64,000 bases of DNA from Hydrogenobacter thermophilus TK-6 (GTDB taxonomy: Bacteria; Aquificota; Aquificia; Aquificales; Aquificaceae). Positions 6,515 through 18,934 of the stretch are shown one piece after another. Every line of letters begins with the position of its first letter. Position 1 is the stretch's first letter. The stretch covers positions 1,116,001 through 1,180,000 of the forward strand of contig NC_013799.1 in NCBI RefSeq assembly GCF_000010785.1, in the 5' to 3' direction. Under the pieces are notes generated by a model, which was not told where the DNA came from, did no database searches, and saw only the letters and a list, made by a program, of their open reading frames with translations. Position numbers and translations under genes: made by a program.

Positions 6515-6609
6515 AAGGAGGAAGCGAGGATCAGCAATCAGGAGATAAGGACCCTTATAGGCACCTAATAAACGTCCCCGGTGGACCAAACGCCTTTTTT
6601 ACACGCATC

Positions 6610-7210
6610 GTTTCAATCCCTTATAGGCACCTAATAAACTTTATGTCTGCTATTTTCTCCCTTGTTGTGGGTGCCCGTTTCAATCCCTTATAGGCACCTA
6701 ATAAACCGCCTCCAATAAAACAGGGTATAAATATGGGTCTCCGGTTTCAATCCCTTATAGGCACCTAATAAACATTTAACATAGGCATAAGCGAGTAAGT
6801 GTTGATATAAGTTTCAATCCCTTATAGGCACCTAATAAACTTTATGTCTGCTATTTTCTCCCTTGTTGTGGGTGCCCGTTTCAATCCCTTATAGGCACCT
6901 AATAAACCGCCTCCAATAAAACAGGGTATAAATATGGGTCTCCGGTTTCAATCCCTTATAGGCACCTAATAAACATTTAACATAGGCATAAGCGAGTAAG
7001 TGTTGATATAAGTTTCAATCCCTTATAGGCACCTAATAAACTGAGATATGTAGAGCAGCTACAGGAGGCAAAGTTCAGTTTCAATCCCTTATAGGCACCT
7101 AATAAACATTTAACATAGGCATAAGCGAGTAAGTGTTGATATAAGTTTCAATCCCTTATAGGCACCTAATAAACTGAGATATGTAGAGCAGCTACAGGAG
7201 GCAAAGTTCA
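6610..7210. repeat. Nested tandem duplications in old end of array
   Basis: The unit S2-S3-S4 (from 6610) is followed directly by an identical S5-S6-S7 (from 6811), a 201-bp tandem duplication of three repeat-spacer units. S7-S8 is then repeated as S9-S10, a 133-bp shift. The S4 sequence is therefore present three times (6774, 6975, 7108). Confidence 0.95.
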
Positions 7211-7907
7211 GTTTCAATCCCTTATAGGCACCTAATAAACACACCTTCCAAGAAAGGCAGTCAGCGCCTTTGAGGTGTTTCAATCCCTTATAGGCACCTA
7301 ATAAACGTGAAGCGCCGCCAAATGAATAGCGAGCCACATTTAAGTTTCAATCCCTTATAGGCACCTAATAAACGTTCTTGGTGGAGAGCGGGATGATAAC
7401 GGGAACTGGAGTTTCAATCCCTTATAGGCACCTAATAAACGCATGAGCTGCAAGGATTTTCCAGCGAGCCACATTTAGGTTTCAATCCCTTATAGGCACC
7501 TAATAAACAGAGTATGTTTAGCTTTTCTTGGGTAGCCTTGACGAGTTTCAATCCCTTATAGGCACCTAATAAACTTCTTTCTCGTGTTCTTTCTTATTTT
7601 CCTGATATCGCGTTTCAATCCCTTATAGGCACCTAATAAACGTGCTCGGAAGACAAAGGCTCGTACAACCAAACAGCGTTTCAATCCCTTATAGGCACCT
7701 AATAAACTGTTCAAAGCTTTGAGTATCAAGTTCTAATACTTTCGTTTCAATCCCTTATAGGCACCTAATAAACAATACACTTTTCTTTGAGGCAGGGGGG
7801 GGATATACAGTTTCAATCCCTTATAGGCACCTAATAAACTCCTGCAACACTGTCATTTGCATCCAGCGCAATCCCAGGTTTCAATCCCTTATAGGCACCT
7901 AATAAAC

Positions 7908-8153
7908 TCTTCACATTTTCAAAGAGTTTGGAATACCTACAGGGAGTTTCAATCCCTTATAGGCACCTAATAAACATACACACAGAAGAGGTAATTTTAA
8001 AGACTTTGCAAGCCTGTTTCAATCCCTTATAGGCACCTAATAAACTCTTCACATTTTCAAAGAGTTTGGAATACCTACAGGGAGTTTCAATCCCTTATAG
8101 GCACCTAATAAACATACACACAGAAGAGGTAATTTTAAAGACTTTGCAAGCCT
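7908..8153. repeat. Two-unit tandem duplication S21-S22 / S23-S24
   Basis: Spacers at 7908-7945 and 7976-8015 recur in the same order at 8046-8083 and 8114-8153, a 138-bp tandem duplication in mid-array. S22/S24 are the longest spacers (40 bp). Confidence 0.95.
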
Positions 8154-8919
8154 GTTTCAATCCCTTATAGGCACCTAATAAACCAAATCCTTGAGAGGCA
8201 ACCAAAAGAGATGTGGAACAGTTTCAATCCCTTATAGGCACCTAATAAACACTCCTTATTGATCATAGCGTTTTTGATGATATATGCGTTTCAATCCCTT
8301 ATAGGCACCTAATAAACCATAGGCATTGACGAAGGGGATATCTACTTTACCGCCGTTTCAATCCCTTATAGGCACCTAATAAACATGAATATCTTTTTTT
8401 GTTTTTCGTAGGCGTGGTAGAGTTTCAATCCCTTATAGGCACCTAATAAACACAGAAGAAAACAGCTCGCCTTCTATCCAAACTTTCCGTTTCAATCCCT
8501 TATAGGCACCTAATAAACGGGTATACTTGAGAGAGAAATTTCAGGACCAAAAATCGTTTCAATCCCTTATAGGCACCTAATAAACCCCGGGGGTTTAAAG
8601 GGGACCTTCACTTATATATACAGTTTCAATCCCTTATAGGCACCTAATAAACTATTCCACCCTTTTCCCTTTTGCCCTGCTGTTCTTCAGTTTCAATCCC
8701 TTATAGGCACCTAATAAACAAGAATTATGCATTTTTCCAGTTTTTGGAATTTTGCAGTTTCAATCCCTTATAGGCACCTAATAAACGTTCTTGGTGGAGA
8801 GCGGGATGATAACGGGAACTGGAGTTTCAATCCCTTATAGGCACCTAATAAACTTCCGGAAGCAAGCGAGGAACTTATTGACGGATTAAGTTTCAATCCC
8901 TTATAGGCACCTAATAAAC

Positions 8920-9080: not shown

Positions 9081-9347
9081 TTAGACTATAAAGTCCTCGT
9101 GGGAAGGCTTCTCTATCCCGAGGGTTTCTCTTTCGTAATACTGCTTTGTCCTGAACTTGTAGATTATCACCGAGTCGTAGGTTTCATCCATAATGCCTTT
9201 TAGTTCGTCTTTGAGCATCCTGAGCTTTGCTTCCGTTATTTCGCCTTCAAATACCGAGTTTTGAACCCAAGTAAGATACTTTCTGCAAATTTTTAGTGCT
9301 TTCGCCACTCGTTCTTCCTTTACATCGTAAACGAGTATTACAAACAT
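9081..9347 (-). CDS. cas2: Cas2, spacer-acquisition nuclease-fold protein
   Basis: An 88-residue Cas2. It starts MFVILVYDVKEERVAKALK, the canonical first beta strand with the conserved Asp, followed by CRKYLTWVQNSVFEGEI. Cas2 dimers bridge two Cas1 dimers in the complex that inserts new spacers at the leader. It begins one base after the cas1 stop, the last gene of the cas operon, directly before the leader. Confidence 0.97.
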   Translation of the reverse strand: MFVILVYDVKEERVAKALKICRKYLTWVQNSVFEGEITEAKLRMLKDELKGIMDETYDSVIIYKFRTKQYYERETLGIEKPSHEDFIV

Positions 9348-10337
9348 CTACCATTCTCCTACAAAAGGTTTATAAATCTCCTCGTCCATAAAATGCTTGT
9401 AAAGCTTATAACACTCTATACGCATGAGTCTGCGGTAAGAAACATTGCCTAAGTTTCTATGCTTGATTGTAGTGTTGAGCTTGTCCTCAAATTCCTTAAC
9501 AAAAATACTTCTACCTTTATCGTTTAGATAAGAAAAACCCACATCGCTGTCAAAATGCTTGAGCTGCATCTGTCCTTTGTTAAGAAGAGAAAATATAACT
9601 CTATCTACTATAACCGGCTTAAAAACTTCTGAAATATCAAGGTTCAGACTGAAGCTCCTCTGGTTTGTTTCGTGTAGATATCCTATCCTAGGGTCAAGGT
9701 GTGTTCTGTATATCTCACTAAGTACTGTGGTGTAGAGCAAAGAGTTACCAAAGCTTATCAAGGCATTTATTGGATTTTCCGGAGGTCTCTTTGTTCTTTT
9801 ATCAAAATAAAAGCCTTCTACTTGAATTATGAGGTTGAAAGACTCGTAATAGGTTTTCCTTATCTCACCTTCTACCTGCATTAGCTCTGCTATAGAATCC
9901 ACACTTGATACAGCTTTAAACTTTTCCTCTATGGAGCTTATCGTCTCCTTTAGGTCTTTGCCTTTTCTTCTATAGTATTCAAGATTCTTTAAGATGTTGT
10001 TTACTGCACCGGCAACAAAGCCCTTTGCCAGATACATGCGTTTTTCTCTGTCAAGATAGTGTTCTGCTTGTTTCAGGATTATAAAGCCCGAGTTTAAAGC
10101 TTCCCTCGGATAGAAGCTTCCTATGTAGTAGCCGTAGTGGTTAAAGAAGTGGACAGGTATCTGGTTTCTGGTCAGGAACTCCAACGCCCTCTTGTTTATA
10201 TCCAGCTCCCCGAAAACCTTTATTTCCGAAACGCTGTTTATGGGTATAACTTTCCTCCCCTCTTGCGTCTCAAGGGAGAGTGTGTTTTCTCTTCTTTCAA
10301 GCCTCCCGCTGGAAAATATGTATAGAGGTTTTTTCAT
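9348..10337 (-). CDS. cas1: Cas1 integrase
   Basis: A 329-residue Cas1 of the I-B type. MKKPLYIFSSGRLERRENTL opens the beta-rich N-terminal domain; the catalytic domain shows NALISFGNSLLYT, GYLHETNQRSFSLNLDISE with the His and Asp/Glu metal ligands, and a C-terminal YKPFV. The ATG at 10337 is chosen over the upstream TTG/ATG candidates because it overlaps the cas4 stop as ATGA and starts exactly where Cas1 proteins begin. Adjacent cas4 and cas2 complete the adaptation module. Confidence 0.97.
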   Translation of the reverse strand: MKKPLYIFSSGRLERRENTLSLETQEGRKVIPINSVSEIKVFGELDINKRALEFLTRNQIPVHFFNHYGYYIGSFYPREALNSGFIILKQAEHYLDREKRMYLAKGFVAGAVNNILKNLEYYRRKGKDLKETISSIEEKFKAVSSVDSIAELMQVEGEIRKTYYESFNLIIQVEGFYFDKRTKRPPENPINALISFGNSLLYTTVLSEIYRTHLDPRIGYLHETNQRSFSLNLDISEVFKPVIVDRVIFSLLNKGQMQLKHFDSDVGFSYLNDKGRSIFVKEFEDKLNTTIKHRNLGNVSYRRLMRIECYKLYKHFMDEEIYKPFVGEW

Positions 10338-10840
10338 GCCCAGCACATACTCCTGTAAGCACACTTTTTGCAGTAAGGTATCTTTACCGCCTTTGGGGGT
10401 TTTTCAAGCTTCAGAATTCTTCCGATATCCTCTATCACCTCTTCAATCTCCCTTTCCAGCTCTGGAGTAAGAGAAACCTTGATCCGCTTCCTCTCCTCGG
10501 GAATAAGTAAGACTCCCTCCATGTCAATACCCTTTTCCCGTTTCATATAGTAAAGGTAGAAGACAACCTGCATCTTGGCGCTCTCTAAGAACTTTGAGCT
10601 TTTCTTTATCTCTCCGATCACCTTCCTTCCTGGGAGGATATCTATTTTTATCGTGTTGTCTATCATAATCTCTTTCCTCTTTCGGGTGTAGAAGATCTCC
10701 TGAATGTACCTTCCCAGAAGGATATAGTCGTTCTCCTGCTCAGCTTCTATCCCATGCCCTATTAGCCACACCTCCCTTTTGCAGATGTAGTAGTACCAGA
10801 CCAGAGTCCCTCCAATAGAGATTCTGTCTTCATACCTCAA
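10334..10840 (-). CDS. cas4: Cas4 Fe-S exonuclease of spacer acquisition
   Basis: A 168-residue Cas4 (Dna2/RecB-like nuclease). The iron-sulfur cysteines are one near the N-terminus (YICKREVWL) and three at the C-terminus (YCKKCAYRSMCWA). The nuclease core carries GEIKKSSKF-like lysine and acidic residues. Cas4 trims prespacers and selects the PAM in type I systems (family knowledge). It overlaps cas3 by 11 bp and cas1 by 4 bp. Confidence 0.96.
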   Translation of the reverse strand: MRYEDRISIGGTLVWYYYICKREVWLIGHGIEAEQENDYILLGRYIQEIFYTRKRKEIMIDNTIKIDILPGRKVIGEIKKSSKFLESAKMQVVFYLYYMKREKGIDMEGVLLIPEERKRIKVSLTPELEREIEEVIEDIGRILKLEKPPKAVKIPYCKKCAYRSMCWA

Positions 10841-13136
10841 AGAAAGCCTCCCCTTTCTCTATAAAGCCTGTCTCAGAGTTATAGTATCTTTCCAGCATAT
10901 CCTGGCTTACGAAGAACGTTTTAAGCTCTTGGTCATAAGAGGGCTCGTTTTCCTTGATATTTACCGTGACTACAAACTTATAAAAGTCGGGTTTGAGCTT
11001 CTCAAACTCTTCCTTAGCTTTAAAAATGTCTATCTTCTTCTTCTTTAAATCCTCAATTATTGACTTAGCTCTACTCCACACCTCGGAAGCCTCATCGTTT
11101 ATCTCCACAAAGACATCTTTCTTATATCTATCATCCTCCATAAGCTCAAAGTTCCGTATTGAAATATCACCCGAAGAGAAGCTGAAGCACTTCACAGCCT
11201 CCAGAATTTTCTTTGACTTGTCGGGGGTGGTTTTCTCCCATACTTTACAAAAGTACTCTTCTATCAGGTTGGTAAGTTCTGGCTCCGATAACTCTTTCAC
11301 TCCTTTAAGCATTTCCTCCGTTATGTTACAGAGAACAGAATCGTATATTCTTGAATAAAAGGGTTTTCCTTCTGAATCTGTAAGTTTAATCACATAAAAG
11401 TTTCCTTTCCCCCTTTCCATATTACGATTGCATCTACCTGCGGATTGATTCAGAGAATCAAAAGGCGCAAAATCTCTATAGACTTCGTCAAAGTCAATAT
11501 CAACCCCAGCCTCCACAAGCTGGGTGCTAACGACAAAGCGATATTTTCCTTTCTTTATCTCCTCTATCCTTCTTAGCCTCTCGTAAGGCAAAACTGAAGT
11601 AGAAAGGTAGCAAATTTTCTCATTCATACGCTCTTTAAGCAATCTATAAAGCTCCTTTGAAGAACTTATTGTGTTGGTGATAAATAGGTATGTTTTATCT
11701 TTCTTAAATTCTAAGGAATTTACAAATTGACCTAAACTAACACCCTCAAGATTTATGAAAACCCTTATTCTGTCCAACCTTTTTCGGAACACATGGGGGT
11801 CCGCCAACTCTACAGCTTCTTCAAGTAAGTAGGGCTGCGTAGCTGTCATCAAAATTATATATACATCAAGATTCTTAGAAACTTCCCTGAGAACTTCCCG
11901 TATTAGATGCCAGTATTTTGTAGGAAGCGCTTGGACCTCGTCTATGAGCAAAATGGAGTTTGCGAGTTTATTAAACCTGCGAAACTCGGAGTTTCTTGCA
12001 GATATTAGAGTATGGAAGAGCTGAACAAAGGTGGTAATTACTATCTCTGAATTCCATCCCTCAGTAAGAAGCCTTGCCTCGCTGAACTCATACTCTTCAA
12101 ATCTGGGTTCGGAAAGATGATGATGTTTAATGAGTATTCTACCCTCTATCTCATGGAATTCCGTTTTTAGAACCTTTATAAGTACCTCTGCATTCTGGTC
12201 AATTATGCTAACAAAGGGAAGTGAATAAATAATCCTTGGCGTGGTGCCTTTTTCGTTCTTAATCAACTCTCTTAGCTTCAGAGCAAAGGCAAAGCCAGTA
12301 AGCGTTTTACCCATACCTGTGGGAAGTGTTATTGAATAAATCCTTTTAGAGAGGTCAACTTCCTTGCTCAGGATCTCTTTGTAAGCTTCCTCCCTAAGAT
12401 GGTCTATTTCTCTGCTTTTGGGAAGGTTATTAGCTTTGTATCGGCTCACCACATGTAAGGGAATACAGCTCACTCGCTTAGGTCTAAAGGATTTTGCACC
12501 AGTCTCGGTTTTGTCAGAATCAAGCAGAAGAGAGAAAAGGTACTGAAACTTAACAAAGTCCTCTATTTTTGACTCACATTTGTGAAAGGACTTCCGGAAA
12601 CTTTTAATCTCTTTTTCTATTTCAGTAAGCTTGTTCTTAAACTCTTCCTTGTTCAAAAAGAGGCTTTTTTTCACATTTTCCGGTAAATTCAAGTTTGAAA
12701 TAAATATATTTGTCTTTTCTTGATCTATGCTTTCAATCTGTATCTTTAAACGCTCAATTTCATCTTTATCAAATGTAAACTCGCTGGTAAAAGACTCAGG
12801 GTCGGTGTGGTGGCTTTTACATGCCACGAAGGAGAAAGAGAGTAATTTCGGGTCGCTTATAAGCTTTTTTGCACAGTAATATGTATAAACTGCAGAGAGA
12901 AGGGAATGCTTGCTGAATTCTGATCTGCGCCCTTTACCTGTTATGTAATCCTGAAAATATTTAGTACATTTTCCAAAGTCATGAAGGGCAACTGAAAGCG
13001 TTGCAGACAGAACAAACTCATCACTTATCAGTGGGAGCTCCCTCTGAAGGTAAAAACTCAAAAGCTCTAAACACCTGTTAATATGGTCCTCTATAAAGAT
13101 TCCTGGATGGGAGTAGATTCCTGACTTTGTTTCCAT
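10830..13136 (-). CDS. cas3: Cas3 HD nuclease-helicase
   Basis: A 768-residue fused Cas3. The N-terminal HD nuclease has ALHDFGKCTKYFQDY (about 51-65), SKHSLLSAVY and CKSHHTDPES. The SF2 helicase follows: Walker A LPTGMGKTLTGFA (about 270), LLIDEVQALP (the DEVQ-type Walker B), LMTATQPYL and the motif VI QSAGRCNRN. Cas3 unwinds and degrades target DNA after Cascade binding. The start ATG lies 46 bp inside cas5; GGAGAGG about ten bases upstream supports it. Both active sites look intact. Confidence 0.97.
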   Translation of the reverse strand: METKSGIYSHPGIFIEDHINRCLELLSFYLQRELPLISDEFVLSATLSVALHDFGKCTKYFQDYITGKGRRSEFSKHSLLSAVYTYYCAKKLISDPKLLSFSFVACKSHHTDPESFTSEFTFDKDEIERLKIQIESIDQEKTNIFISNLNLPENVKKSLFLNKEEFKNKLTEIEKEIKSFRKSFHKCESKIEDFVKFQYLFSLLLDSDKTETGAKSFRPKRVSCIPLHVVSRYKANNLPKSREIDHLREEAYKEILSKEVDLSKRIYSITLPTGMGKTLTGFAFALKLRELIKNEKGTTPRIIYSLPFVSIIDQNAEVLIKVLKTEFHEIEGRILIKHHHLSEPRFEEYEFSEARLLTEGWNSEIVITTFVQLFHTLISARNSEFRRFNKLANSILLIDEVQALPTKYWHLIREVLREVSKNLDVYIILMTATQPYLLEEAVELADPHVFRKRLDRIRVFINLEGVSLGQFVNSLEFKKDKTYLFITNTISSSKELYRLLKERMNEKICYLSTSVLPYERLRRIEEIKKGKYRFVVSTQLVEAGVDIDFDEVYRDFAPFDSLNQSAGRCNRNMERGKGNFYVIKLTDSEGKPFYSRIYDSVLCNITEEMLKGVKELSEPELTNLIEEYFCKVWEKTTPDKSKKILEAVKCFSFSSGDISIRNFELMEDDRYKKDVFVEINDEASEVWSRAKSIIEDLKKKKIDIFKAKEEFEKLKPDFYKFVVTVNIKENEPSYDQELKTFFVSQDMLERYYNSETGFIEKGEAFFEV

Positions 13137-13852
13137 AAGTATATTACCTCTCCGTTACCGAGCTTAATCAGATCGGTAAACTTTCCGTATATGGCTCCTC
13201 CTTCCACACTGAAAACTACATCTTCGTACATTTTTACCATCCTATTACTGTCCATGACGACAGGTATTCTTTCCTTTCCTATTTTCTGAACCTTTCCAAT
13301 ATCAATCTCCCTTATAATTCTTGAAGGTATTACGCTGTCTGCTCTGTCCGAAACATCTATGGGATGACTATCAAAGACTCCTACAAAGCTAAAATCCGCC
13401 AAGAGCTCCGAAAGACCGAGAGAAACGGTGTAGTAGGTTTTGTGATTTTTCACCATATCCGTAAGTTTTTTCAGAAATTCTTCACTCGCAGAGATGTATA
13501 TTCTATAACGAGGGTCTTTGACAAATTCAAATTTTACCTGGGTCCTTAATGTTTTGTTGGCATCACCTTTTCTTGAAGGATCTAAAGTTGGGTCAAATTC
13601 CCCTGAGCTTCCCTTGGTGAATATAAGGTTTAAGCCTGTTCTCAGCTTTTTTATGGGATTGACTATCTTAACTCCCACGTAGATATCTTTTGTCTTATCA
13701 AGATACTCTTCCTTACCGAACCCCATGATAGCTCCTATAATTCCCCTTATTGTGGGCTGTGGTGGAAAAGGAAAAGTCAAGGGTGAAGAGGTGGTGTAAA
13801 ACTTTCTGAAATGTCCTAAATCGCCAAAGAGGTCAAAGACCAAAACCTTCAC
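13091..13852 (-). CDS. cas5b: Cas5 (type I-B), Cascade subunit binding crRNA handle
   Basis: A 253-residue Cas5. The N-terminal GDLGHFRKFYTTSSPLTF followed by PPQPTIRGIIGAIMG is the hallmark of type I-B Cas5 (Csh-type), and a glycine-rich region is near the C-terminus. Cas5 caps the 5' handle of crRNA. GTG is the start, with GGAGG about 16 bases upstream in the end of cas7. The 46-bp overlap with cas3 suggests coupling. Confidence 0.95.
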   Translation of the reverse strand: MKVLVFDLFGDLGHFRKFYTTSSPLTFPFPPQPTIRGIIGAIMGFGKEEYLDKTKDIYVGVKIVNPIKKLRTGLNLIFTKGSSGEFDPTLDPSRKGDANKTLRTQVKFEFVKDPRYRIYISASEEFLKKLTDMVKNHKTYYTVSLGLSELLADFSFVGVFDSHPIDVSDRADSVIPSRIIREIDIGKVQKIGKERIPVVMDSNRMVKMYEDVVFSVEGGAIYGKFTDLIKLGNGEVIYLWKQSQESTPIQESL

Positions 13853-13858
13853 GCCCTG

Positions 13859-14761
13859 TTAAACCTCCTTAGCCCATTTAAATTCTTCAATAGCGATCCC
13901 ACTAAAAACCTCCTTCAAGGATGGTTCTATTCTGATTCTATCGTTGATTATGTAATTAACTTTCTCTATCTTGTCTTTATACTTTTGCACTTTTTCCTTT
14001 AGTCTGCTTAGGTCTATCTCCACCTCCTCTATGTCTCTTATCTCCTCATCCCTCTTGTCGGTATTTATCCTCACCAGTTTGTCTAACTCTCCCATGTGGG
14101 TGAGTGTGCCCTCTTTGTAAATAATCTCAATTAGTAGCCTTGGCTCGTGTCCAAATTTTGAGCGGGAAATCACATCTGTTGAACTTTTATGCCCAACCCA
14201 TAGAGCCTTAAGCATTATGTCTATATCTTCATCCTTAAGTTTCGTTTCCTTTGCTGCATTTTCATTGGCAATTCCGTAAAAAACTATCAAAGAGTAAGGA
14301 ACAACGTACATCTCAGTCATGGTCCCCTGTGCTTTCTGTTCTGCAGAAGGCATGACAGTGGTCCCCTTAACAAATTCCATCTTTACCCTGTGCAAGGATT
14401 TACCAAACTTGAACTGGACAGGACCTGTGAAGCACCTTTGCTGGTTCTTGATAGCAAAGGTCCCCCCAAAAAGCCTGATGTCTATACATTTTTCTAACAC
14501 TTGGTTGTAATCATTCCCGTACTTTGCAAATATACTCTCTTTGGTCTTTAGGTTTCCGTCATCAGTCCTTTCTTCCTTGATGAAGACTTCATGACCCATT
14601 TCTGCAAGCTGATCCCTGACTGTTCTTTTAAGCCTTACATCTGTAACATAGTTAATCCCGGTCTCTTCATCGATTCTCGGCTTGTTCTCGTCCATAGTGT
14701 CGCCATTTGGATTTGCCCACGAAACATCGTAAATAAACAGAAACTCACGCCTGCTCTTCAT
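13859..14761 (-). CDS. cas7b: Cas7 (Csh2 type), Cascade backbone
   Basis: A 300-residue Cas7 of the Csh2 subfamily. MKSRREFLFIYDVSWANPNG with DENKPRIDEETG and VTDVRLKRTVRDQL are diagnostic, as is RCFTGPVQFKFGKSLHRV in the middle. Multiple copies coat the crRNA in Cascade. AAGGAGGT five bases before ATG gives a strong ribosome site, as expected for the most abundant subunit. It overlaps cas8b by 17 bp. Confidence 0.96.
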   Translation of the reverse strand: MKSRREFLFIYDVSWANPNGDTMDENKPRIDEETGINYVTDVRLKRTVRDQLAEMGHEVFIKEERTDDGNLKTKESIFAKYGNDYNQVLEKCIDIRLFGGTFAIKNQQRCFTGPVQFKFGKSLHRVKMEFVKGTTVMPSAEQKAQGTMTEMYVVPYSLIVFYGIANENAAKETKLKDEDIDIMLKALWVGHKSSTDVISRSKFGHEPRLLIEIIYKEGTLTHMGELDKLVRINTDKRDEEIRDIEEVEIDLSRLKEKVQKYKDKIEKVNYIINDRIRIEPSLKEVFSGIAIEEFKWAKEV

Positions 14762-15167
14762 TGCTTACCTCCTTTTTGGAATATATATACCCAGCAGCTT
14801 TATCAAACATACCCATACCAAGTGAGAAGTAAAAGTTAAGCTCTTCTATGCTCATATTCCAAACTGCTGGAGCCTTTGAAAAATACTCTGAGGTAAGGTT
14901 AAAGAGCTTCATTTCACCAGCACGAAATTTATCGTACTCTTCTAACTTATTTCTAACTTCTGGTAAAAGCCCCTTAAGATCGTTTTCATTCATCTTTAAT
15001 CCCTTTAACTTCTTTAGGAAAGGTTTACTTCCCCTTTCGCTTTCCTGAACTCGTAATAGTCTCTCTGTCAAAGCACCTAATAAAAATAAGCCTTTTTTAA
15101 GGTCGTTGTTAAGTGTAGGCAAACTTTCCAGAAACTCTTCAAGGCTGTTAACATCTTTTACCTCCAT
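14745..15167 (-). CDS. cas11b: Predicted Cas11b small subunit from internal start
   Basis: Inside cas8b, in the same frame, ATG at 15167 is preceded by AAAGGAGG (15173-15180) with five bases between: the best ribosome site in the cas operon. Starting there gives a 140-residue, helix-rich, charged protein ending at the cas8b stop. Type I-B, I-C and I-D systems are known to make their Cas11 small subunit by internal translation of the large-subunit gene, and size and position match. Function is inferred from that precedent; expression is not shown by sequence alone. Confidence 0.78.
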   Translation of the reverse strand: MEVKDVNSLEEFLESLPTLNNDLKKGLFLLGALTERLLRVQESERGSKPFLKKLKGLKMNENDLKGLLPEVRNKLEEYDKFRAGEMKLFNLTSEYFSKAPAVWNMSIEELNFYFSLGMGMFDKAAGYIYSKKEVSNEEQA

Positions 15168-16487
15168 GTCAACCTCCTTTGTTGTAAGTTTTACAAAGAC
15201 AAACACACTAAAGGCGTCTTTTATTAAATTTTTGTAGCCTTCTTCCTTCTTTATAGCATCCCTTATCCCCTTCATGAGAAAGTTTAACAGAAACTTTTCG
15301 TCTATTTTGACACCCCTAAAGGTCTTATCAAGAACTTCCAAGAAATACTTTCTGAGGTCTGGTTCTTTCTTGGTTGAGTCACTTTTGGAAAAGAACTTGT
15401 AAATAGTATAGTAATTAAAAGTATAACTAAATCCGTTTGAACTAAAGAGCTTTTCTACTTTCCTTTTAGCCTCAAACAGTTCCCTTAGCCTTGAGGGATA
15501 AACATCCTGTATTAAAAGTAAAATCCTTTCGGCTGAAAGCTCGGATTCAAGGAATAAGAAATTCAAAGTAAGGACGTCTCTTTCATCACTTAAGATCTCA
15601 AGTATTTCCTCTTCATCAGCCATAAGAGATTTATGCTCCCTTGAGCTTAACATTATTTTCCTAACTTCGGGATTACGGGGAAAGAGAATATCAAAAGTTT
15701 CCTTTTTTATTTTGTCTCTTCCCAATATGAACTCCGGTATTAAATAGTAAGTTATTACTCCGCCAATTTTAAACTTTAATTTTTTTTCTAATATTTCTTC
15801 TCTCCCTCTCTTTATGTAATCTCTACACTCATAACACAGGGGAAAATTTTTAAAGGCAATTTCTTTTTTGAATCCTCCGGTTATATAGCCAGGTTTGTCA
15901 ATCGTATAAAACTTAAAGGGAGCGATATCTCCGCTCACTTCCTTTTCCTGAAGACAGACAGAGCAAATTCCCGTTCCTCTACTTTCCCTACCCTCCTCCT
16001 CAAGCTCTTTTTTCAAAGCTTTTATAAAATCTTCTATCTCTCCCACATATTTACCACCTATTTTAATAGTGAGTAGTATCTTCTCTTTAGCCGGTATTAT
16101 CTCAGTAATCCTGTATATTTCCTCCTCCAACTTTTTCTTATCCAAGGTCGGTCTTGCTATCTTTTCAAACTGAATTTTGTTGAGAACTTTTTCTAAATTA
16201 TCCAAGGTTCTCATCACAGGAGATTTCTTATCATCGGGTTTCTTTTTACCTCTTTGAAGTATGATAGTGGGTGTGAGTGTTGGAGGATTGCTTCCCTTTG
16301 CTTTTTTATATAAATACTTTTCTTGCTTGCCTTCAAAAAAATCCTCAAGATCAGTTTTTACAAACTCCCCCTTTTCATCAAACTCAAGGACAAGAACTCT
16401 ATCAGCTTTTTCTACTTCATCGTAAAGCTTTACACCCCCAAATAGCTCACCTATATCTCTACCTATATCTCTAATCGCCTTCAACAC
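14745..16487 (-). CDS. cas8b: Cas8b (Csh1 type), Cascade large subunit
   Basis: A 580-residue Csh1-type Cas8b, which recognises the PAM. A zinc-finger-like pair, CSVCLQEKEV and CYECRDYI (about 180-223), is typical of Csh1. The sequence is Lys/Glu-rich and by eye more A+T-rich than flanking housekeeping genes. GTG at 16487 lies in the end of cas6 (17-bp overlap); a TTG directly follows, so the exact start is uncertain by one codon. The last 140 codons can be made separately from an internal start (next entry). Confidence 0.92.
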   Translation of the reverse strand: MLKAIRDIGRDIGELFGGVKLYDEVEKADRVLVLEFDEKGEFVKTDLEDFFEGKQEKYLYKKAKGSNPPTLTPTIILQRGKKKPDDKKSPVMRTLDNLEKVLNKIQFEKIARPTLDKKKLEEEIYRITEIIPAKEKILLTIKIGGKYVGEIEDFIKALKKELEEEGRESRGTGICSVCLQEKEVSGDIAPFKFYTIDKPGYITGGFKKEIAFKNFPLCYECRDYIKRGREEILEKKLKFKIGGVITYYLIPEFILGRDKIKKETFDILFPRNPEVRKIMLSSREHKSLMADEEEILEILSDERDVLTLNFLFLESELSAERILLLIQDVYPSRLRELFEAKRKVEKLFSSNGFSYTFNYYTIYKFFSKSDSTKKEPDLRKYFLEVLDKTFRGVKIDEKFLLNFLMKGIRDAIKKEEGYKNLIKDAFSVFVFVKLTTKEVDMEVKDVNSLEEFLESLPTLNNDLKKGLFLLGALTERLLRVQESERGSKPFLKKLKGLKMNENDLKGLLPEVRNKLEEYDKFRAGEMKLFNLTSEYFSKAPAVWNMSIEELNFYFSLGMGMFDKAAGYIYSKKEVSNEEQA

Positions 16488-17208
16488 TGTCCACTACCTC
16501 CACCATGCCAAAGCCCTGAGGATTCTTTGCCCCAAGACCCGCCTCTAAGGCTAACTTTACTATCTGAGTGCTACCCCTTATATTATAATAACCTTCCCAC
16601 GCTTCTATCAGTGATCCTTTATAAACTATCTTTTTCTTGTATCTTTGACTTATCCTGAGGGGTTTTAGCTCCAGCTCTTCCTTATAGCTCTTGCCGTAGA
16701 TAAGTTGGTATTTTTTTATCAAATTGTTCTTGATAAGCTCGTAAAACTCCTCTTGCCATGGACTAAAAAACTGCTTTTTAGTTTCACCTTCTGGAGTGCG
16801 ATAAACCGTTATGGGTGATAGACATCTGACATTTACATCTTCCCGCACAGTTGGTTTAATAAGCTCTACAGACTCCAGTCTTAATCTGTTTTCACCGAGG
16901 AATAAATTTTCCCGCTTTAGGAAAACATTCACCGCGGAAGATACTATATCCATCAAAGGTGAGGCAAAGTAAACCGTTATCTGTGGCTCGAAGAAAACGA
17001 GATTGCCCTGTCTGGAAGCCAATTTGCCTATGATCTTTGAAAAGGTAAATAGTTTAAACCTCCTTCTGTTGTAAACAAAGCCTATCTCGTGGAGGAATTT
17101 AGAGAGCACTGGGTCCGTGTTTTTGTAGAAAAAAGCCTGAAGCAGATGGTTGTAGCTCTTGGGAAGTCTTATAAGCCCCTCACCTGTCAGTTTAATTTTT
17201 AGTATCAT
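16471..17208 (-). CDS. cas6: Cas6 crRNA-processing endoribonuclease
   Basis: A 245-residue Cas6 that cleaves within the repeat to leave the ATTGAAAC handle. The start MILKIKLTGEGLIRLP is the usual first ferredoxin strand, and the C-terminal glycine-rich loop GLGAKNPQGFGMVEVV is the Cas6 signature. SYNHLLQAFFY contains a His that could be catalytic. The frame stays open upstream to 17298, but that part overlaps carB and does not resemble Cas6, so ATG 17208 is chosen. It is the first gene of the cas operon. Confidence 0.95.
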   Translation of the reverse strand: MILKIKLTGEGLIRLPKSYNHLLQAFFYKNTDPVLSKFLHEIGFVYNRRRFKLFTFSKIIGKLASRQGNLVFFEPQITVYFASPLMDIVSSAVNVFLKRENLFLGENRLRLESVELIKPTVREDVNVRCLSPITVYRTPEGETKKQFFSPWQEEFYELIKNNLIKKYQLIYGKSYKEELELKPLRISQRYKKKIVYKGSLIEAWEGYYNIRGSTQIVKLALEAGLGAKNPQGFGMVEVVDSVEGD

Positions 17209-17260
17209 AGCACTCTGTTTAAGAATCCTAAAGCAATGATGTATAATTTTAACAGACAGA
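17209..17260. promoter_or_regulatory. Divergent promoter region cas6 / carB
   Basis: Only 52 bp separate the two starts. TATAAT at 17242-17247 (plus) would start carB mRNA about 7 bases before ATG; no Shine-Dalgarno is present. On the minus strand the same A+T-rich block offers TAAAAT, but no convincing -35. The cas operon promoter is therefore only tentatively placed here. Confidence 0.45.
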
Positions 17261-18934
17261 ATGCCAAAGAGGAGTGATATAAAAAAGATACTCATCATAG
17301 GCTCGGGTCCTATAGTTATAGGTCAGGCTGCTGAGTTTGACTACTCGGGCACTCAGGCTTGCAGAGCTCTCAAAGAAGAGGGCTACAGTGTGGTGCTGGT
17401 CAACTCTAACCCTGCCACCATAATGACGGACCCAAGCGTGGCGGACAGAACATACATAGAACCTTTGACTGTTGAGGTGCTCGAAGAAATAATAAAAGCA
17501 GAAAGACCAGATGCACTCCTTCCCACCCTTGGGGGACAGACAGCTCTCAACCTGGCGGTAAAGCTCTACGAGGAGGGCATTCTGGAAAGGTATGGCGTTG
17601 AGCTAATAGGTGCCAGCTATCAAGCCATAAAGAAGGGAGAAGACAGGGAGCTTTTTAGAGAGTCCATGAAAAAGATAGGTTTAAAGGTTCCCGAAAGTGC
17701 TGTGGTGTCTTCTTTAGAAGAGGGGATGAGTGTTATAAAAAGCATAGGCTTTCCTACCATACTCAGACCTGCCTTTACCTTGGGAGGAACTGGAGGAGCC
17801 ATAGCATACAACATTGAGGAATTCAAAGAAAAGCTTGAAGTGGCTCTAAAAACATCACCAATACATCAGGTTTTGATGGACAAGTCCTTGATTGGCTGGA
17901 AGGAGTTTGAGTTTGAAGTCATAAGAGACTCAAAGGATAACGTAATAATAGTCTGTAGCATAGAGAATTTTGACCCAATGGGTGTGCATACGGGAGATTC
18001 CATTACGGTGGCACCGGCTCAGACACTCACGGACAAGGAGTACCAGATACTCAGAGATGCCTGTATAGAAGTTATGAGGGAGGTGGGCGTTGATACGGGA
18101 GGCTCCAATATACAGTTTGCGGTAAATCCCGAAAACGGGGACTTTTATGTGATAGAGATGAACCCGAGAGTTTCAAGGTCATCCGCGCTGGCTTCAAAAG
18201 CTACAGGCTTTCCCATAGCCAAAGTTGCCGCAAAACTGGCGGTGGGCTACACCCTTGACGAGCTTAGAAACGACATAACCAAACATACACCGGCATCTTT
18301 TGAGCCTTCAATAGATTATGTGGTAGTAAAAATACCCCGCTTTGACTTTGCAAAATTTCCACAAACGGACAGAACCCTCACCACCATGATGAAGTCCGTA
18401 GGTGAGGTAATGGCAATAGGCAGGACTTTCAAGGAAGCCTTCCTTAAAGCCATAAGAAGTCTTGAGATAGACACCTATGGCCTTTTACATCCCTCCTTTG
18501 ACCATGTTTCTGATGATGTGCTTGTGAGAAATCTCAGGATCCCCAACCCTGAGAGGATATGGTATATAGCCTCGGCTTTCAGAAGAGGGTACTCGGTGGA
18601 TGAGGTTTACCATTACACCAAGGTAGACAGGTGGTTTTTGTATCAGATAAAACAGATAGTAGACTTTGAAAGCACACTTGCTCAAGGAGTTCTTGATGAA
18701 GAAAAACTAAGGCAGGCAAAAGAACTCGGGTACTCTGACTTTGAGATAGCTAAACTTGTGGGCAAAAGGGAAGAAGAGGTAAGGGCTTTAAGAGAAAGCC
18801 TTAGGGTACTTCCCGCTTTTAAAGGTGTGGACACATGCGCAGGTGAGTTTGTTGCTTACACGCCTTACTACTACTCTACTTACGAAAAACCCTATTATAC
18901 AATGGACGGACAGGAGATTTTAGACCAAGACTAA
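17261..18934 (+). CDS. carB: Carbamoyl-phosphate synthetase large chain, N half
   Basis: A 557-residue protein covering only the N-terminal half of CarB (usual length about 1070). The first ATP-grasp unit is complete ([50 protein letters not shown]), followed by the oligomerisation domain with [20 protein letters not shown]; it then ends with a short own tail and stop. The second ATP-grasp and the allosteric domain are not in the window. Split CarB genes are known in Aquifex and some methanogens, so this is probably natural. This half makes the carboxyphosphate/carbamate step; carA is at 23000. Confidence 0.94.

Follow-up and report, generated by a model that had tools for sequence, protein, structure and literature searches.

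The window, a stretch of 64,000 nucleotides from Hydrogenobacter thermophilus TK-6, carries a complete type I-B (Cas8b1/TM1802) operon of cas6, cas8b, cas7, cas5, cas3, cas4, cas1b and cas2, together with a CRISPR array. On the minus strand, cas6 (16471-17208) is followed by cas8b (14745-16487), which starts with GTG and encodes 580 residues, and by cas7b (Csh2; 13859-14761), whose Shine-Dalgarno (SD) sequence AAGGAGG lies within the 3' end of cas8b/cas11. Further along the same strand are cas5b (Cas5h; 13091-13852), cas3 with its HD and helicase parts (10830-13136), cas4 (10334-10840), cas1b (9348-10364) and cas2 (9081-9347). The array (6534-8890) is composed of the repeat GTTTCAATCCCTTATAGGCACCTAATAAAC with a unit of about 67 nt. 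The large subunit matched PF09484 (Cas_TM1802) with an E value of 1e-156, matched TIGR02556 as well, and was called as Cas8b by PADLOC; the genome has one PF09484 gene. The initial annotation had described it as an Aquificales-type Cas8b1, a designation which has to be abandoned, as there is no such separate kind: its family is PF09484/TIGR02556, which takes its name from Thermotoga maritima TM1802.

Several details of gene calling and array structure were noted at the locus. The longest cas6 frame (16471-17298) overlaps carB, the gene for the carbamoyl-phosphate synthase large subunit, in head-to-head orientation. Relatives such as the gene of locus L024 agree with the start at 17208 (MILKIKL), which gives no overlap and is preferred, with 17298 probably being wrong. 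The 557-aa ORF divergent from cas6 (17261-18934) resembles, by eye, the N-terminal half only of carB; a split carB is known in Aquifex and some archaea. With respect to cas1, the gene was called from GTG 10364, where there is no ribosome site, and ATG 10337, which has ACAGGAGT upstream, is the likelier start. Blocks of spacers in the array are duplicated exactly and in tandem, with 6610-6810 identical to 6811-7011 (three units), 6945-7077 to 7078-7210 (two units) and 7878-8015 to 8016-8153, and a spacer beginning GTTCTTGGTGGAGAGCGGG is repeated at 7343 and 8756.

Inside cas8b, the sequence ACAACAAAGGAGGTTGACATGGAG consists of the SD motif AAAGGAGG (15180-15173, minus strand), the 5-nt spacer TTGAC and an ATG at 15167-15165. 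This ATG is in the cas8b frame and opens a putative cas11b reading frame of 140 residues (14745-15167, minus strand), with the stop at 14745 common to both products. Both the coordinates and the sequence of this in-frame ribosome site and ATG had been given correctly in the initial annotation, which had further claimed greater strength for this site than for cas8b's own. Calculation of the anti-SD duplex agreed, giving -13.0 kcal/mol for the internal site versus -10.7 kcal/mol for the cas8b GTG start (GTGGAGGTAGTGGACA-GTG). Among the genes of the operon cas7 alone (-13.6 kcal/mol) outdoes the internal site, which also tops all 25 in-frame ATG, GTG and TTG codons of cas8b by a margin of 2.3 kcal/mol.

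Taken alone, this single site is only mildly unusual when compared with chance, and it proves little. One AGGAGG-N5-ATG was found in the window and 0.71 would be expected by chance; an equally strong site is present at 12 of the window's 1976 ATGs; and, in this gene alone, recoding the seven upstream codons synonymously yields a site as strong in 11% of cases. Such figures are what might be seen if a purine-rich stretch had arisen by chance in a linker rich in lysine and glutamate, with cas8b encoding full-length Cas8b only. It is because the site is conserved in 89 relatives that it amounts to far more than chance. Accessibility of the SD sequence in the mRNA was also calculated and was dropped as support for an internal start, since the site is no more open than random in-frame positions.

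For the family comparison, PF09484 was found in 31 of 136 Aquificota genomes, and 80 more loci were taken from GTDB contigs labelled as Anaerolineae, Firmicutes, WOR-3, Atribacteria, Nitrospirae, Thermodesulfobacteria, archaea and others. The GTDB scan gave no matches when queried with a single protein and succeeded with an alignment as the query. Once duplicates and truncated copies were removed, the final set contained 89 distinct cas8b genes (PF09484/TM1802) in 48 clusters at 60% identity.

Conservation in relatives, a check which the initial annotation had named, was clear-cut. All 89 genes have an in-frame start codon no more than two codons away from the Met441 column (82 ATG, 4 GTG and 3 TTG), a count which is slightly generous since, for genes without an ATG in that column, the choice fell on whichever start codon had the best SD in a range of eight codons. 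Met occupies the exact column in 77 of the 89, and an SD core (GGAG, GAGG, AGGA or AGGT) precedes the internal start in 85, with an SD-to-start spacing of mostly 5 or 8 nt across the family. Among clusters the Met column shows 81% identity and its flanks about 40%.

The controls separated this signal strongly from coding constraint. The family mean SD energy was -11.36 for the 89 observed genes versus -6.40 for synonymous recodings, in which the seven upstream codons were redrawn 300 times according to each gene's own codon usage (standard deviation of set means 0.27). As the best of the 300 null sets reached only -7.07, such sets never came near the observed mean, and on this comparison of sequences chance is already refuted as a family-wide explanation; we attach a vanishingly small probability to it. 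The result was similar with one gene per cluster (mean -11.6 versus -6.27 for recodings). An SD energy of -9 was reached at 86.5% of Cas11 starts versus 1.4% of 737 other in-frame ATGs of the same genes, and the Cas11 ATG was the strongest in-frame ATG in 83/89 genes. Strong sites were present at 92% of Cas11 Met positions and at 0-8% for the other internal Met columns common to at least 40% of clusters (window residues 405, 427, 499, 545 and 558).

Codon choice and reading frame point the same way. Among Glu codons located three to four codons before the internal start, 44 of 47 are GAG, with 14.8 expected (p=4e-19). The GGAGG motif is written as xxG-GAG-Gxx in 62 genes, as GGA-GGx in 8 and as xGG-AGG in 1, encoding K-E-V, G-G and R-R-V, respectively; its occurrence in all three reading frames argues that the nucleotides have been kept and not the residues. 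In L019, where the Met is shifted four codons downstream relative to the aligned column, GGAGG is found just 5' of this Met. These data provide strong comparative evidence that, in the Cas8b1/TM1802 family, the start codon and ribosome site are conserved beyond coding constraint. They also bear on the proposal that a small subunit could be a proteolytic fragment of Cas8b with no independent translation, the interpretation once given to short Cas8b fragments of Clostridium thermocellum and Methanococcus maripaludis, as recounted in PMC11899642. Proteolysis does not predict that a ribosome site is conserved beyond what synonymous recoding gives, nor a bias towards GAG codons, and we regard this origin as extremely unlikely.

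A small number of relatives depart from the common pattern. The gene of L109, from a metagenome-assembled genome labelled as Bacteroidetes, keeps the internal ATG and has no SD, which may be expected since Bacteroidetes make little use of SD sequences. Two archaeal genes (L082 and L083) have a TTG start with GGAG, the sites of L044 and L046 are weak (GGAG), and most of the Hydrogenothermaceae-like genes (L002-L007) have GAGGT only, of moderate strength at about -7.

The 140-residue product was predicted by AF2, using a 25-sequence alignment, to be all-helical, with seven helices, disordered ends and a mean pLDDT of 88.7, in keeping with the earlier description of a helical protein of this length. 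In the AF2 model of full-length Cas8b, Met441 is located in a loop (436-448) between helices 418-435 and 449-455. According to these models, the product is a complete, compact alpha-helical domain beginning at an interdomain boundary. A Foldseek search with the 140-residue model against 350,542 PDB chains gave no significant match; the top two were weak (E about 1, TM 0.39-0.55) and were 9jhc_A (TM 0.46/0.55) and 7kha_K, both chains of type I-C Cascade which we take as Cas11c from their lengths of 112 and 120. For the full-length Cas8b model (pLDDT 83), all ten matches with E below 1e-3 were type I-C Cascade chains, the best with an E value of 1.3e-10. Profiles of Cas11 and Cas8b, searched against PDB sequences, gave no meaningful match and none to a solved Cas11. 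A search for Cas8c (PF09709) in Aquificota gave subthreshold matches only, all of them inside the same cas8b genes.

The small-subunit gene had been described as missing from the locus, and the search of the complete genome agreed that there is no other. A profile of the 140-residue product matched only itself, the Cse2 and Csm2 families gave no match, and Cmr5 gave a subthreshold match of 12.9 bits (cut-off 21) inside a 560-aa frame. Internal SD-like motifs have sometimes been proposed to cause ribosome pausing, and the position of the motif at the interdomain loop would suit a signal that slows elongating ribosomes at a domain linker and aids folding of Cas8b, with no free small subunit being made. 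Pausing, however, requires no start codon, and one is kept in 89/89 genes, of which 7 use GTG or TTG; the SD-start spacings, too, cluster at 5 or 8 nt. Moreover, the system would then lack the small subunit found in related Cascades, and we judge pausing to be a very unlikely explanation.

We therefore favor the reading in which cas8b encodes two proteins in one frame, Cas8b and an internally started Cas11b, to which we assign a probability of about 0.94. The initial annotation had proposed as much, and conservation of the start, the predicted helical fold, the boundary at the interdomain loop and the lack of another small-subunit gene in the genome all support it. Most likely the operon transcript would be read twice across cas8b. 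Ribosomes starting at GTG 16487 would produce full-length Cas8b of 580 residues, and those drawn by AAAGGAGG to ATG 15167 would produce Cas11b, the C-terminal helical domain of Cas8b as a free protein. Translation of the product, its stoichiometry and its function we infer by analogy with other type I systems, according to which several copies of Cas11b would line the Cascade belly beside the C-terminal domain of Cas8b and hold the displaced non-target DNA strand. The strong internal site may supply Cas11b in excess over Cas8b. It is the stronger of the two sites in 63 of 85 genes, a comparison which relies on inferred cas8b starts, and this would fit a need for excess Cas11b.

The putative Cas11b is thus a well-supported further case, on comparative grounds, of an internally translated Cas11. 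Such translation was described as widespread in types I-B, I-C and I-D (McBride et al. 2020, as reported in PMC7684278 and PMC10212523), and the initial annotation had called it established for several systems of these types. The novelty is lower than the initial annotation had claimed for an Aquificales-type Cas8b1, since an internal Cas11 was assigned in the Cas8b1 of Thermotoga maritima in 2026 (PMC13199841). That type I-B1 protein, of about 15 kDa, is likewise internal and in frame and comes from the same large-subunit family, for which the PF09484 profile gave matches in T. maritima. The Thermotoga site was described by its authors as suboptimal (PMC13199841), whereas that of the window is near consensus. 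Recombinant Thermotoga cas8b1 produced no Cas11 in E. coli, so that such a site may stay unused when the host is a foreign one, and the authors state that experimental demonstration in Thermotoga is still required (PMC13199841). For this reason, the comparison across the Cas8b1/TM1802 family, which strongly favors internal translation of Cas11, should be useful.

In Haloferax volcanii, Cas11b of the type I-B system likewise begins at a Met codon in frame within the 3' third of cas8b and was shown to be a separate protein by tagging, mass spectrometry and mutation of the Met; it is archaeal, has a mass of 28.9 kDa and a weak SD (GGATG), in contrast to the bacterial 140-residue product with a strong SD described here (PMC11899642). 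In Synechocystis PCC 6714, too, the type I-B Cas11b is translated from a ribosome site within the 3' end of cas8b, and cryo-EM of the Cascade revealed three Cas11b per Cas8b, with the non-target strand held (PMC11096372). The Synechocystis Cas8b is of the Cmx8 kind, and its sequence relation to the window protein was undetectable in the PDB search. Cas11c of the type I-C system of Desulfovibrio vulgaris consists of residues 489-612 of Cas8c and is made from an internal ribosome site (PMC7684278). As a separately made C-terminal part of Cas8c, it suggests the same anatomy as here, and the window proteins find their best structural matches among type I-C Cascade chains. The subtype is different, however, with sequence identity of 17-20% and a weak structural score for the small domain.

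An internal Cas11 product of this kind is missed by gene callers, and reconstruction of these thermophilic type I-B systems in a different host should include a separate cas11. A further proposal, which we offer tentatively and would sooner doubt than accept, is that, all through the TM1802 family, the ratio of Cas11 to Cas8 is set by tuning how strong the internal site is. If so, a single gene would carry the stoichiometry of assembly in its translation signals, and the silent Thermotoga site in E. coli would represent a host effect or a lineage exception.

Two apparent cases of natural cas8b fission were considered and rejected. The break at the Cas11 boundary in L024 is a stretch of N letters in the contig sequence, and the gene of L025 is truncated at the end of its contig. 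The cas8b of Thermodesulfobacterium thermophilum DSM 1276 (L050:736-2476) is interrupted by a single stop codon, in frame, where its N-terminal half meets the C-terminal half, and its internal Cas11 start (GAGGAGGGAGCC-ATG) and frame are intact despite this stop.
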